From positions 1,668,147 to 1,732,146 of the forward strand of contig NZ_CP011070.1 of the NCBI RefSeq assembly GCF_000956175.1: DNA of 64,000 nt, in the 5' to 3' direction. This stretch comes from Nitrosopumilus adriaticus (GTDB lineage: Archaea; Thermoproteota; Nitrososphaeria; Nitrososphaerales; Nitrosopumilaceae). Below are positions 2,836 through 11,222 of the stretch, piece after piece. Within the stretch, counting starts at the first letter, position 1. Each line of letters begins with the position of its first letter. Below the pieces are notes generated by a model. It was not told the origin of the DNA, did not search any database, and worked only from the letters and a program-made list of their open reading frames with translations. Made by a program: the position numbers and the translations under genes.

Positions 2836-3849
2836 TTAGATTAATTTTTCAATAATATTTGATGCCGTTTTTGCACCATCGGAATTTACTGGATTTCTCT
2901 TTTCTTCAAGTTTTTCTAAAATTAGAGAATCTAATCTTTGAACATCATCAAAAACAAATCCTTGTTCTCTTGCATTATCTTCTTGTTCAAAATGACCTTT
3001 TATTGGAATAAATATTGCCGGAGTTCCATAAGCATTTGCCTCATCTATTGTAGATTTACCTGCCAATGAAATTAGTAAATCTGCTGCAAAAATCAATTCG
3101 TGTAAATTATCAACAAACCCCAAATTTGTGACATTTTCGAATTTTCTAGTAATTGCTGGACCAGATATCAAAATGACATCAATGTCTTGATTAATTTTTG
3201 AAATAGAATCTAATGCTTTTTCAATAAGAAAAACCCCTGCATCAGTTCCACCTATTGATACAACAATTGTTTTTCCTTTAAATGAGAATTTTTCTCGTAA
3301 TTCATCTCTTGAATGATTTGTAGTTCTAACGATTGGCCCAACTCTTTTGATATTATCAATATCATCTCCATGTTCAGGAAGAATAACTAGATCACATTTT
3401 CGAGATATTTCCTGCATTGACTTGTTCATTTTTTTCTCAATTAATAATGCTAGTCCTCTAGTAAAACGAGTCTCTAAGATATCAGTTATCAGAACTGTTG
3501 GAATTCCCATTGTTTGTGCAACAGTCAATGATGCAAAATCTTCATCACTTATCACCAAATTTGGATTATCAATGTACAGAATCTTCTCTGAGATGCTTTT
3601 GCAATCTTTGTAATATTTGTAATAATTCCAAAGCCACCTTGCAGGATTCTTTAGATTTCCATTTTCTACAATAAAAGATGGGGGTTCGTATACATCTCGA
3701 AAATTAAAATGTAAATTTCCCAGAATTTTAGCAGCTCCACTACCTGTTACAAAATTTGTAGATATTTTTTCAAAATTATTTACAATCGCAATATCTCTAG
3801 TTACATGGCCTAAACCAATAGGACTAGAAAAAAAATTACAAATATTCAT
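2836..3849 (-). CDS. GT-B (MurG/GT28-like) glycosyltransferase-family protein
   Basis: 337 aa with the GT-B two-domain layout. The N-terminal domain has GLGHVTRD (about 13-20), the glycine/histidine loop used by MurG-like enzymes. The C-terminal domain has IGGTDAG and AGKSTIDEANAYGTPAIFIP-type features of the nucleotide-sugar site. Probably transfers, or processes, a nucleotide sugar at the cytoplasmic face. PseG-type sugar-nucleotide hydrolases share this fold, so hydrolase activity cannot be excluded. Same strand as lysC, 45 nt upstream of it. Substrate unknown. Confidence 0.7.
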   Translation of the reverse strand: MNICNFFSSPIGLGHVTRDIAIVNNFEKISTNFVTGSGAAKILGNLHFNFRDVYEPPSFIVENGNLKNPARWLWNYYKYYKDCKSISEKILYIDNPNLVISDEDFASLTVAQTMGIPTVLITDILETRFTRGLALLIEKKMNKSMQEISRKCDLVILPEHGDDIDNIKRVGPIVRTTNHSRDELREKFSFKGKTIVVSIGGTDAGVFLIEKALDSISKINQDIDVILISGPAITRKFENVTNLGFVDNLHELIFAADLLISLAGKSTIDEANAYGTPAIFIPIKGHFEQEDNAREQGFVFDDVQRLDSLILEKLEEKRNPVNSDGAKTASNIIEKLI

Positions 3850-4047: not shown

Positions 4048-5238
4048 ATGGAAATATCCTTTGATGAAGTAAATTCCAGATCTGATCCTTACCAATTATT
4101 CTTGGATTCAATTCGTAGTCCTTCAACTCTACGTCGTTACAAGAATCTATTACAGACATTTCTCAAGCTTGTTCCAAACAAGTTCTATACAGAATCTCTA
4201 GGAAAAACTCCACAAGACAGAGAACCTGCAACTCTAGCTAAATTCTTTGTAGAGTTGGCAAGAAAAGATATGAAACTAGCTTCAAACATTATTGCTACAT
4301 TCATCAAAGCTGACAGAAAGCGAGTTGAATCTGGAGAGATTAGCTCACAAACCATTCCTAATCACATAAAACCAATCAAAGTTTTGCTTGATGCCAATAG
4401 TGTTCCAATCCACTGGAAGTCATTAAACAAACTACTCCCACGAAGAGAGGCAAAGTCAAAAGACAGGGCATACACCAAAGAGGAAATTCAAAAGATGTTT
4501 GAGGTTTCAAGCAACATTACAGACAGGGTTTTGATTTTGATGTTCTCATCAGGTGGTTTCAGATTGGAAGCTTGGGATTACTTTACTTGGAAAGATATCA
4601 TATTTTTCAAAAATGATGATGGTTCCTACAAAGGTGCTGCATTGCTAATCTACAGAGGAGATCCAGAAAGTTATTTTACATTTATCACTCCAGAAGCTTG
4701 TAAAGCACTAGAAGTTTATCGTGAAAATTGGAAAGCAGACATTGGTGTTTATCCAAAACCAGATGATCCTTTAATCAAGACAGTTGCATCCCCTATGATT
4801 CGAAGACTTGCTCAGAAAGGAGTAAGAAAGAGAATAGATAAAGTTGTGACCGATATTGGTTTGAGACCGCCACTACCTCTAGGAGTTAGAAGACATGAAG
4901 TCCAGCTTGATCATGGCTTTAGAAAATATTTCAATACAATGCTTAGACGTGCTAAAGTAGATTATTTGGATAAAGAAGACATGATGGGGCACAAAGTAGG
5001 TCTTGAAAAACACTATGAGAGATACCAAGAAGAAGATTTTGAGCGATTCCCCGAGTACCAAAAGGCAATTCCATTCTTGACCATCTCTGATGAAGAAAAG
5101 ATTAGATTTGAAAATGAAAAACTATTAGGGGAAAAATCTGATCTTGAGAAAAAGAATGAAGAGTTAATGAAAATGCAACTTGATATGGACAAAATCAAGC
5201 AAAGATTAGATATTTCTGAAAATTTTGAAAAAGTTTAA
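4048..5238 (+). CDS. Tyrosine recombinase (element integrase)
   Basis: Site-specific recombinase expected to catalyse integration and excision at the tRNA-Val repeats. 396 aa: N-terminal SAM-like core-binding region (about 15-130), catalytic domain (about 140-345) and a charged C-terminal coiled coil (about 350-395, heptad-like E/K/L). Catalytic set visible: Arg172 in GGFRLEAW, HxxR at 289-292 (HGFR), His315 in MGHK and nucleophile Tyr323 (HYERY; Tyr326 is an alternative). The gene starts 44 bp from the tRNA-Val end and reads away from it, the usual arrangement. The frame is intact, so the element may still be mobile. Confidence 0.93.
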   Translation: MEISFDEVNSRSDPYQLFLDSIRSPSTLRRYKNLLQTFLKLVPNKFYTESLGKTPQDREPATLAKFFVELARKDMKLASNIIATFIKADRKRVESGEISSQTIPNHIKPIKVLLDANSVPIHWKSLNKLLPRREAKSKDRAYTKEEIQKMFEVSSNITDRVLILMFSSGGFRLEAWDYFTWKDIIFFKNDDGSYKGAALLIYRGDPESYFTFITPEACKALEVYRENWKADIGVYPKPDDPLIKTVASPMIRRLAQKGVRKRIDKVVTDIGLRPPLPLGVRRHEVQLDHGFRKYFNTMLRRAKVDYLDKEDMMGHKVGLEKHYERYQEEDFERFPEYQKAIPFLTISDEEKIRFENEKLLGEKSDLEKKNEELMKMQLDMDKIKQRLDISENFEKV

Positions 5239-8618: not shown

Positions 8619-8975
8619 TTATGAATTAATCATTTTTTTAATTAATGGTAAATACTCCTCGAGCAATATCTCTTTGTCCTTTGTCAATGTAAACACTTTC
8701 ACTGCTCTTGTAACTTTTTTACCACCATTGTCTATGTGACGTACCTGCCATTCACTTGAAACTATTTTCAACTTCTCTAGACTTCGTAAAATTTCTTGTG
8801 TAGAGGTTTTACTGCCTGCAACTTTTCCTTGTATTTCATTGAAATACGATCCTTTTTTGTCACATAAAATGGAAATTATTTTTGCTGCTTTCCCATTTTT
8901 CAACACATATGCCAAAACCTTCATTTCTGATGTACCTAGATTTTTTGGCAATAATTTTGTGCTTGATGCTTCCAT
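8619..8975 (-). CDS. Winged helix-turn-helix regulator (leftward)
   Basis: 118 aa. Helix-rich N-terminal part with LGTSEMKVLAYVLKNGKAAK, then a recognition-helix-like KTSTQEILRSLEKLKIV and a wing (VRHIDNGGKKVTRAVKVFTL), the layout of archaeal winged-helix repressors. Faces the second winged-helix gene across 148 bp. The 12-mer ATACTTGAAGTA sits 2 nt before its ATG, and a TATA box (minus strand ATTTTTATAC, near 9001-9010) lies about 26-30 nt up. Likely part of the switch for the ubiquitin-like operon or for the element as a whole. Confidence 0.8.
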   Translation of the reverse strand: MEASSTKLLPKNLGTSEMKVLAYVLKNGKAAKIISILCDKKGSYFNEIQGKVAGSKTSTQEILRSLEKLKIVSSEWQVRHIDNGGKKVTRAVKVFTLTKDKEILLEEYLPLIKKMINS

Positions 8976-8976
8976 A

Positions 8977-8989
8977 ATACTTCAAGTAT
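8977..8989 (-). promoter_or_regulatory. Operator copy 1 (ATACTTGAAGTAT)
   Basis: Near-perfect 13-nt palindrome lying between the TATA box and the ATG of the leftward winged-helix gene, ending 1-2 nt before the ATG. Same 12-mer, same orientation and same spacing as the copy at 9110-9121. Confidence 0.65.
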
Positions 8990-9109
8990 CACGCTGATCA
9001 GTATAAAAATGCAATGATGTCATATTTGATCTTACAATCAATTTTTGTAATCTTTCTCTCTCTAGGCATGATTTAATCCTATATGTTTATATATATCGGT
9101 ATTCTAATA

Positions 9110-9121
9110 ATACTTGAAGTA
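9110..9121 (+). promoter_or_regulatory. Operator copy 2 (ATACTTGAAGTA)
   Basis: Sits between the TATA box (TTTATATATAT, about 9086-9096) and the ATG at 9124, 2 nt before it. A bound protein here would cover the expected transcription start of the ubiquitin-like operon. Confidence 0.65.
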
Positions 9122-9123
9122 CG

Positions 9124-9456
9124 ATGATGAAGTATGATTATGATACTGATGAAAAAAGAATAATTAAGCTAGTGACAAAACAGCCATGTTCATTTAATGA
9201 AATAAAATTAGTAGAATCAATTAACTCTCTACGTCTATCTGAAATTCTTCATGGTTTAGAAAAAGAAGGTTCAATCTATTCCATGTGGAAACATGAAAAA
9301 ATTTTGAAAGATGATAAACCGTATACAAGAATGAGACGCATTTATCTTATTTCTAATTTATTTCAGTTATCAAATAAACATGATAACACTGTCTCTGCAA
9401 TAAAGCCCTGCAGAACAATCAATTCAAGGATGTGTAACAATGCAAATAGAAAATGA
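9124..9456 (+). CDS. Winged helix-turn-helix protein leading the Ubl operon
   Basis: 110 aa. The N-terminal ~75 residues fit a winged helix: helices DTDEKRIIKLVTKQP and SFNEIKLVESI, a recognition helix near LRLSEILHGLEKEGSI, then a basic wing (KHEKILKDDKPYTRMRRIYLI). The C-terminal ~35 residues are low-complexity and may be disordered. It overlaps the ubiquitin-like gene by 17 nt, so it is the first cistron of that operon and probably its regulator. Transcript predicted to be nearly leaderless. Confidence 0.75.
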   Translation: MMKYDYDTDEKRIIKLVTKQPCSFNEIKLVESINSLRLSEILHGLEKEGSIYSMWKHEKILKDDKPYTRMRRIYLISNLFQLSNKHDNTVSAIKPCRTINSRMCNNANRK

Positions 9457-9700
9457 ACAATGCACCCGACACTTTAACATATTTGTTAATGCAAGGAGAC
9501 ATTCATGGGAAGACAAAACAATCAATTATTCACAAGTAGTTGATTTAGCATTTCCTCCTCCACATGGACCAAACGAAGTATTCACTGTACAATACAGTCG
9601 TGGTCCAAAGGAAAATCGTGAAGGTACTCTTGTAGAGGGACAGGAAGTTGAAATTAAGAGCGGAATGGTATTTGATGTCACTAGAACTGATAAATCGTAA
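9440..9700 (+). CDS. Multiubiquitin-type ubiquitin-like protein
   Basis: 86 aa, a single ubiquitin-like domain of the bacterial multiubiquitin type. Recognisable family blocks: FNIFVNARRHSWEDKTI at 12-28, YSQVVDLAFPPP at 30-41, EVFTVQYSRGP at 46-56, EGTLVEGQEVEIK at 61-73 and MVFDVTRTDKS at 76-86. Expected role: the small protein activated by the E1-like enzyme that overlaps its 3' end by 26 nt. Odd: the C-terminus is TRTDKS, not a di-glycine tail, so how it is attached (or whether it acts as a scaffold) is unclear. AAGGA at 9426-9430 is its ribosome site. Assignment is from remembered family patterns. Confidence 0.85.
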   Translation: MQIENEQCTRHFNIFVNARRHSWEDKTINYSQVVDLAFPPPHGPNEVFTVQYSRGPKENREGTLVEGQEVEIKSGMVFDVTRTDKS

Positions 9701-10861
9701 TTCTGATCTGCAACAACTTCAAAATGAAGGTTATGAGGTAGAATTTTTTAACATCTACCTCATGATCCATCATGTTCCATATGTGAATGACAAGAAACAA
9801 GTAGCATATGGAACATTAGTTTCAAAATCCAGCATATTAGAATCATCTGTAAAACCTGCAGATCATACAACACTTTGGATTGGAGATTTTCCATGTGATT
9901 GCAAAGGTTCACGATTACTCAAATTGGGGGATAATAGCGTACAAGAAAAAATTCGAGATGGATTAGTGGCTACTCGTATGTTTTCTCAAAAACCCAAAAC
10001 TTCCTCAGCAGCATATGCAAACTATCATGAAAAGATGACTACCTATGTTAGGATGTTGGAAGGTGAAGCCCGTGTTATAGATCCTAATGTAACTGCTAAA
10101 ACATTCTTACCTATTCAACCCACTAAGGAAGAATCTGTTTTTCATTATTTGGATACTGCTTCAACTCGTGCTGGAATTACTTTGATAAACGATAAACTAA
10201 AACAAGATCGAATTGCCATAGTAGGATTAGGCGGAACAGGCTCATATATCCTAGATTTTATGGCTAAAACCCCAGTAGGAGAAATTCACCTTTTTGATGG
10301 AGATAAATTTTATAACCATAATGCTTTTCGTTCTCCTGGAGCACCCACATATGATGAACTCTTAAACAACACAACTAAGGTAGAGTGGTTTACAGAAATT
10401 TATTCTCGTATGCGAAGAAATATCATTCCACATCCACAGATTATTGATGAAACAAACATTGGAGATTTGGATTCGATGGATTTTGTTTTTTATGTGTGGA
10501 TAAAGGAGAATCAAGGGAATTATTGGTAGAGCATCTAATAAAAAATAAAATTCATTTCATAGATGTTGGAATCGGTCTCATAAATGAAAATAATTCATTA
10601 ACAGGGTTGATTAGAACAACTTCTTATGATCCAATATTAAATAATAACATATCAGGAAAAATTCCTTTTGACAACAATGAAGATAATGAATATTCCACGA
10701 ACATTCAAGTTGCTGAGATGAATGCATTGAGTGCCATATTTGCAATTATCAAGTGGAAAAAGATCTGTGGTTTCTATCACAGTTTTCCAAATGAAAATCA
10801 TTCTGTTTATGGAATTTTTAGTAATACTTTAACAAATGAGGAGGTTGAAAATGAAGCGTAA
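9675..10861 (+). CDS. ThiF/E1-type ubiquitin-activating enzyme with N-terminal partner domain (one frameshift)
   Basis: About 395 aa once a frameshift is repaired. Residues 1-150 form the N-terminal domain that accompanies these E1s (LINRNSDLQQL, HHVPYVN, IGDFPCDC). I think this is the DUF6791-type region and possibly E2-like. Residues 175-395 are the Rossmann adenylation domain: GLGGTG 184-189, FDGD 207-210, Arg219 in NAFRSPG, and after the shift LCVDKGESR and NIQVAEMNALSAIFAIIKWKK. Expected chemistry: ATP-dependent adenylation of the Ubl C-terminus. The frame breaks at a T6 run (10486-10491); one more T gives continuous FVFLCVDKG. ATG 9675 matches family N-termini. Confidence 0.85.
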
Positions 10862-11222
10862 AATGATTCGACATAAGTTTGTTGATTTAATTCCAGACAT
10901 GGTAGAAGAAGGAGTAATTTACATATCTATTCCGTTTTCCACAGCTACTCACAAATGTGTATGTGGTTGTGGTGAAATTATTGTAACCCCAATCAAACCT
11001 ACTGATTGGGAAATTATCTGGAATGGAGACACAGTTTCACTAAACCCGTCAATTGGAAATTGGAGTCTTCCATGTCAATCTCATTATTGGATAGAAGAAA
11101 ATAAAATTATCTGGTCAAGAAAATGGAATGACTTAGAAATAGAAATAGGTCGTGAAAAAGACACAGTTGCAAAAGCTAAACATTATGGGAAATTTAGAAG
11201 GTGGCTTTCATGGATGAAGTAA
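10851..11222 (+). CDS. DUF6527-type metal-binding protein of Ubl operons
   Basis: 123 aa. Diagnostic core: TATHKCVCGCGEIIVTP (32-48), PTDWEI, SLNPSIGNWSLPCQSHYW (63-80). Potential metal ligands are H34, C36, C38, C40, C75 and H78. This family regularly sits next to multiubiquitin and ThiF genes in bacteria; its biochemical role is not known to me (a target-recognition or E3/peptidase-like function is speculation). The ATG at 10851 is preferred because GAGGAGGT (10838-10845) lies 5 nt before it; an ATG at 10836 overlaps that site. It overlaps the E1 stop by 11 nt. Confidence 0.85.
   Translation: MKRKMIRHKFVDLIPDMVEEGVIYISIPFSTATHKCVCGCGEIIVTPIKPTDWEIIWNGDTVSLNPSIGNWSLPCQSHYWIEENKIIWSRKWNDLEIEIGREKDTVAKAKHYGKFRRWLSWMK

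Follow-up and report, generated by a model that had tools for sequence, protein, structure and literature searches.

Paired palindromes at the predicted starts of two divergent winged-helix-type genes, candidate operators at the head of an archaeal Ubl operon

The window, a 64,000-nt stretch of the genome of Nitrosopumilus adriaticus, an archaeon of the ammonia-oxidising type (NZ_CP011070.1, positions 1,668,147 to 1,732,146), contains two divergent open reading frames, wHTH1 on the minus strand and wHTH2 on the plus strand, with a 148-bp spacer between them (8976–9123). Genes of a ubiquitin-like (Ubl) operon for protein tagging follow wHTH2. The locus was compared with that of JARPSM01 ("Nitrososphaerota archaeon isolate OTU3"; G200), which belongs to the same genus. 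Among 250 genomes of the family, wHTH1 and full-length wHTH2 were found only in N. adriaticus itself (G000) and in G200. The features are as follows.

8619–8975, minus strand: wHTH1, a 118-aa winged-helix protein, the proposed repressor
8977–8989, no strand: left palindrome ATACTT-C-AAGTAT, containing the repeated 12-mer on the minus strand
9002–9009, minus strand: TATA box upstream of wHTH1, TTTTTATA, at −34 to −27; TATAAAA kept in G200
9086–9093, plus strand: TATA box upstream of wHTH2, TTTATATA, at −38 to −31 from ATG 9124; inside a block conserved at 19/20 positions
9097–9103, plus strand: CGGTATT, between TATA box and palindrome; 7/7 in G200
9110–9121, plus strand: right 12-mer, ATACTTGAAGTA, holding an 11-bp palindrome (9111–9121) and covering the TATA-predicted start near 9116
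9124–9456, plus strand: wHTH2, 110 aa and winged-helix-like, the first gene and ahead of the Ubl genes; start shared with G200 at ATG 9127
9440–9700, plus strand: multiubiquitin-domain protein (PF14452, E 7.3e-18), its start overlapping the wHTH2 stop
9663–10529, plus strand: E1-like protein, N-terminal part (DUF6791, PF20590, E 8.5e-49; start of ThiF, PF00899, E 2.3e-8)
10496–10861, plus strand: E1-like protein, C-terminal part, in a different frame (NF004805 positions 273–390)
10845–11222, plus strand: DUF6527 protein (PF20137, E 3.7e-23)

As the sequence-only reading had it, the 12-mer ATACTTGAAGTA is present exactly on both strands, at 8978–8989 (minus) and 9110–9121 (plus), and on each side it is separated by 2 nt from the first ATG (8976–8977 before the minus-strand ATG at 8975; 9122–9123 before the plus-strand ATG at 9124). 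Its core, TACTT-S-AAGTA, is an odd palindrome, of which the left copy spans 13 bp and the right one 11 bp. The same orientation of the 12-mer relative to each gene had been taken as the mark of a mirror-image switch. The orientation is as described but nearly uninformative: since the core is palindromic, a matching orientation is almost automatic, and every palindrome has such a mirror image. This argument for a switch was therefore discarded.

The spacer is A+T-rich, and odd palindromes of the same arm length occur 2.3 times per kb of the window. When the spacer was shuffled with preservation of its dinucleotides, a non-overlapping inverted match of at least 12 nt was obtained in 40 of 20,000 shuffles. 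A second test, on the outer 20-nt ends, gave a 12-mer match between them in 8 of 150,000 shuffles and a palindrome in both in 64 of 150,000; it was designed post hoc, so that the exact value is not to be pressed. Twin 12-mers at either end of the spacer are far more than chance would be expected to yield. TGAAGTA-type half-sites with a period of 13 nt were also seen at 9116–9150; they extend into the beginning of the wHTH2 coding sequence and are nearly unchanged in G200.

A TATA box in front of each gene had likewise been proposed, and TATA-like octamers are found upstream of both at the positions listed. Octamers of this kind were found to cluster at −26 to −35 when 38 upstream regions from the window were compared, a distance that suits messages with a short leader or none. 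The usual archaeal distance from TATA box to start is about 26 nt, so that the predicted transcription starts lie inside or beside the palindromes. At each of the two promoters the palindromic site is located downstream of the TATA box, and a protein sitting on it would block initiation. A search for thaumarchaeal start-site mapping in the literature found nothing useful. The right open reading frame of G200 opens with ATG-ATA-ATG-AAG; the start common to both genomes is thus ATG 9127, at 5 nt from the site, and this codon, the next after ATG 9124, is probably the conserved start of wHTH2.

Comparison of the spacers of N. adriaticus and G200, a single pairwise footprint, showed the right 12-mer to be kept at all 12 positions and the block 9084–9103, comprising the TATA box and CGGTATT, at 19 of 20. 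In the left half, the TATA region is kept at 7 of 9 positions, and the palindrome is preserved in its gene-proximal half including the centre base (7/7) but not in its distal half (3/6). The mid-spacer has diverged, with only 33 of 74 positions identical, which points to constraint on the promoters and palindromes, the left palindrome being only half kept. Due to the loss in its distal half, autoregulation of wHTH1 at this site may be weak or absent in G200. CGGTATT (reverse complement AATACCG) is a possible additional half-site.

That both genes encode winged-helix proteins, as had been read from their translations, holds well for one of them. The best of five AlphaFold models of wHTH1 reached a pLDDT of 83.7 (the other four remained below 46) and shows a helix-turn-helix followed by a two-stranded wing, i.e. 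a winged helix. Foldseek matched it to ArsR/MarR-type regulators and to TFE/TFIIE (best E 2.8e-4, probability 1.00). For wHTH2 the model has only the right order of elements (H-H-H-strand-strand) at low confidence (pLDDT 54.5), and profile searches gave weak PadR-like matches to it (E 0.011). In fold, wHTH1 is like the ArsR/MarR/PadR-type regulators; no Pfam or NCBIfam model scored above its cut-off for either protein. The two share 29% identity (E 4e-5; hhalign P 9.5e-6). Other matches of the wHTH2 profile are weak and generic; wHTH1 itself is among them (E 5.3e-4), a match in favour of paralogy, and judging by these alignments the two are distant paralogues.

The G200 orthologues are 74% (wHTH1) and 64% (wHTH2) identical to the N. 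adriaticus proteins. In the recognition helix, 12 of 15 residues are kept in wHTH1 and only 6 of 16 in wHTH2; parts of the wing and C-terminal tail of wHTH2 are invariant. With the right operator unchanged, the helix of wHTH2 diverged and that of wHTH1 kept, wHTH1 appears, from these two sequences of each protein, the more likely reader of the operator. A 57-nt stretch (9390–9446), which consists largely of the last part of wHTH2 and reaches the start of the multiubiquitin gene, is identical in both genomes, and wHTH2 upstream of it shows only about 55–75% identity. This stretch is possibly a second signal or the trace of a recent exchange.

A search of the host genome for further copies, which the sequence-only reading had proposed, brought the exact 11-bp palindromes in its 1.80 Mb to four. 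Besides the two described here, two lie inside open reading frames and neither is at a gene start; one is in a histidine kinase gene and the other in an NADH-dehydrogenase-like gene, as judged from its frame and neighbours. Ten relatives of the same genus carry one to four exact copies each, with or without the regulators, and hence do not point to a wider regulon. Counts that allowed up to two mismatches equalled those of a reversed-pattern control. These counts speak against a genome-wide regulon, and control would be local if the site is an operator. An operator common to other thaumarchaeal Ubl operons was dismissed, since the operon starts of G008 and G416 gave no match within two mismatches.

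The genes behind wHTH2 may form a Bub-type ubiquitination-like operon; multiubiquitin, DUF6791-ThiF and DUF6527 are all present, and neither an E2 nor a JAB gene of its own was recognised at the locus. The order multiubiquitin-E1-DUF6527 is common to G008, G013, G200, G346 and G416, and among these five only G200 has the wHTH pair upstream. Compared with the other operons of this kind, the present one thus shares the gene order and differs in its wHTH pair, found in G000 and G200, and in its frameshifted E1. The two E1 parts match positions 1–271 and 273–390 of the NCBIfam model NF004805, respectively, and the frame is lost near 10490 in a T run (window 10480–10530). In G200 the E1 gene is also frameshifted, elsewhere and again in a T run (L021 4975–5020); it is intact in G416 and G008. 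The break may represent a sequencing error, phase variation or decay. As E1 is frameshifted in both genomes carrying the wHTH pair, the operon may be decaying, and decay in both, if true, would make it less likely that the circuit is still of importance.

A tyrosine-integrase-like gene (4048–5238) lies 3.4 kb from the wHTH pair. In G008 an integrase-like protein with 34% identity to it (L014 7856–9148) is encoded directly divergent from the Ubl operon, and the occurrence of such genes near the operon in two genomes suggests mobility. Subtilase-family proteins (PF00082) are encoded near multiubiquitin-E1-DUF6527 in G416 and G346 (L019 1941–3617; L013 4705–6876), and none was noticed beside the operon of the window. 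N. adriaticus and G200 have the same two neighbours near the Ubl locus, a glycosyltransferase-like gene and an aspartokinase gene (window 2836–3849 and 1375–2790; L015 4587–7064), and in G212 and G080 the alignable DNA ends just upstream of the glycosyltransferase-like gene. Searches returned no relatives of wHTH1 or wHTH2 in IMG/VR viral contigs, none of wHTH2 in a phage collection and none of wHTH1 or the spacer DNA on plasmids; the idea that the two genes came from a phage or plasmid was accordingly rejected.

We propose with moderate confidence that the two palindromes are operators of a local winged-helix repressor that covers both starts, autoregulating its own gene and silencing the rightward unit. 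From the sequence we infer that a dimer, most likely of wHTH1, would bind TACTT-S-AAGTA at each predicted start. Being placed just downstream of each TATA box, the bound protein would then block initiation, whereby wHTH1 would limit its own synthesis and keep off wHTH2-multiubiquitin-E1-DUF6527, presumably transcribed as one unit. The diverged paralogue wHTH2, encoded by the first gene of this unit, probably modulates the repressor, for example by forming a mixed dimer or by sensing the inducing signal. Of the mutual or self-repression suggested earlier, it is the latter that fits better: a shared candidate operator, paralogous proteins and a start-covering position suit self- and common repression, and mutual repression finds no such backing. 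Activation from the position of the palindrome, instead of repression, is possible. It also counts against our proposal that the palindrome, with 11 bp in all and 5 bp in each arm, is short for binding a winged-helix dimer unless there are extra half-sites.

The proteins could be arranged differently on the same sites. In one such arrangement wHTH2 would repress or activate both promoters, with wHTH1 as the modulator. The first gene of an operon often encodes its regulator, the best conserved palindrome sits at the promoter of wHTH2, and parts of its wing and of its C-terminal tail are invariant; given its diverged recognition helix and low-confidence model, we nevertheless hold this to be unlikely. 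We regard as quite unlikely a two-way switch, in which the shared operator would be read by both proteins and each would repress the other, so that two stable states result. Two winged-helix-like paralogues and an identical sequence at both promoters would be in keeping with it, but the recognition helix of wHTH2 has changed at 10 of 16 positions with the operator unchanged in G200, and one operator class at equal positions favours common repression over mutually exclusive states. Since bistability requires two mutually repressing regulators, the divergence of wHTH2 next to its own fully conserved operator (12/12) argues against it. The lysis-lysogeny type of switch envisaged in the sequence-only reading is possible but unsupported. 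Its phage or provirus setting was not found either: IMG/VR scans gave no relatives of either protein and the phage collection none of wHTH2, and the adjacent Ubl set has homologues in the chromosomes of relatives, though the integrase-like gene does lie 3.4 kb away.

Other explanations do without an operator. The repeat could be a start-region signal for initiation or translation, with TGAAGTA before the ATG, and in G200 it is indeed the gene-proximal TGAAGTA by the start that both sides retain. This is improbable in our view, as the sequence is rare in the genome with its other exact copies away from gene starts, is unlike a Shine-Dalgarno sequence at usable spacing, and is kept as an entire palindrome on the right. 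Still less probable is a functionless chance similarity: short palindromes are common in such A+T-rich DNA and other genomes contain a few copies, but shuffles seldom put such sites at both ends, and the sites, not the mid-spacer, are kept in G200. We give hardly any weight to the notion of an invertible promoter segment of 145 bp that has the 12-bp inverted repeats as its borders and is turned round by a site-specific recombinase. Such repeats do flank two promoters, and the integrase-like gene and its relative beside the G008 operon speak for it; however, both genomes have the same orientation, G200 lacks the distal half of the left repeat, and palindromic form alone accounts for the inverted match.

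The closest counterpart to the proposed local repressor in its way of working appears to be YtrASa of Sulfolobus acidocaldarius, a GntR-type winged-helix repressor of only two loci, its own included, whose operator is a 14-bp semi-palindrome located over the transcription start and downstream of BRE/TATA, with flanking half-sites (PMC6746942). Common to both would be an archaeal winged-helix regulator, a palindromic site over the (here predicted) start, candidate half-sites nearby and possibly a very small regulon to which the regulator's own gene belongs. YtrASa, however, is a single regulator acting at two separate loci, whereas here two paralogues face each other across one spacer; it is of a different winged-helix type and targets membrane proteins rather than a Ubl operon. 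The likeness is one of mode of working, and no sequence relation is claimed.

In biological setting, the regulators of bacterial Bub operons seem closest. Bacterial ubiquitin-like operons often have dedicated local repressors with a link to DNA damage; CapK with CapS, CapW, and CapH with CapP are regulators beside Bub/Bil/CBASS operons, and CapS has a wHTH domain that binds TTAA palindromes (half-sites) at its own and the operon promoter (PMC13373217). The resemblance lies in local DNA-binding proteins beside a ubiquitin-like conjugation operon. The WYL, STAS, GHKL kinase and peptidase domains of the Cap proteins were absent from wHTH1 and wHTH2 (Pfam, NCBIfam, PADLOC), which are therefore not filed with the Cap regulators. 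Unlike these, they are single-domain proteins of 110–118 aa encoded by divergent genes with archaeal promoters.

We tentatively raise the possibility, doubtful as it is, that the two paralogues, each with a single winged-helix domain, make up a private two-component repressor/antirepressor circuit, different from CapW, CapHP and CapKS, which occludes both leaderless starts of an archaeal Ubl operon through a shared palindrome. If such control holds, archaea would have an unrelated solution made up of a start-site palindrome and two small winged-helix paralogues. It would constitute a compact and easily testable promoter module, and would hint that archaeal Ubl operons, too, stay off until a signal arrives.
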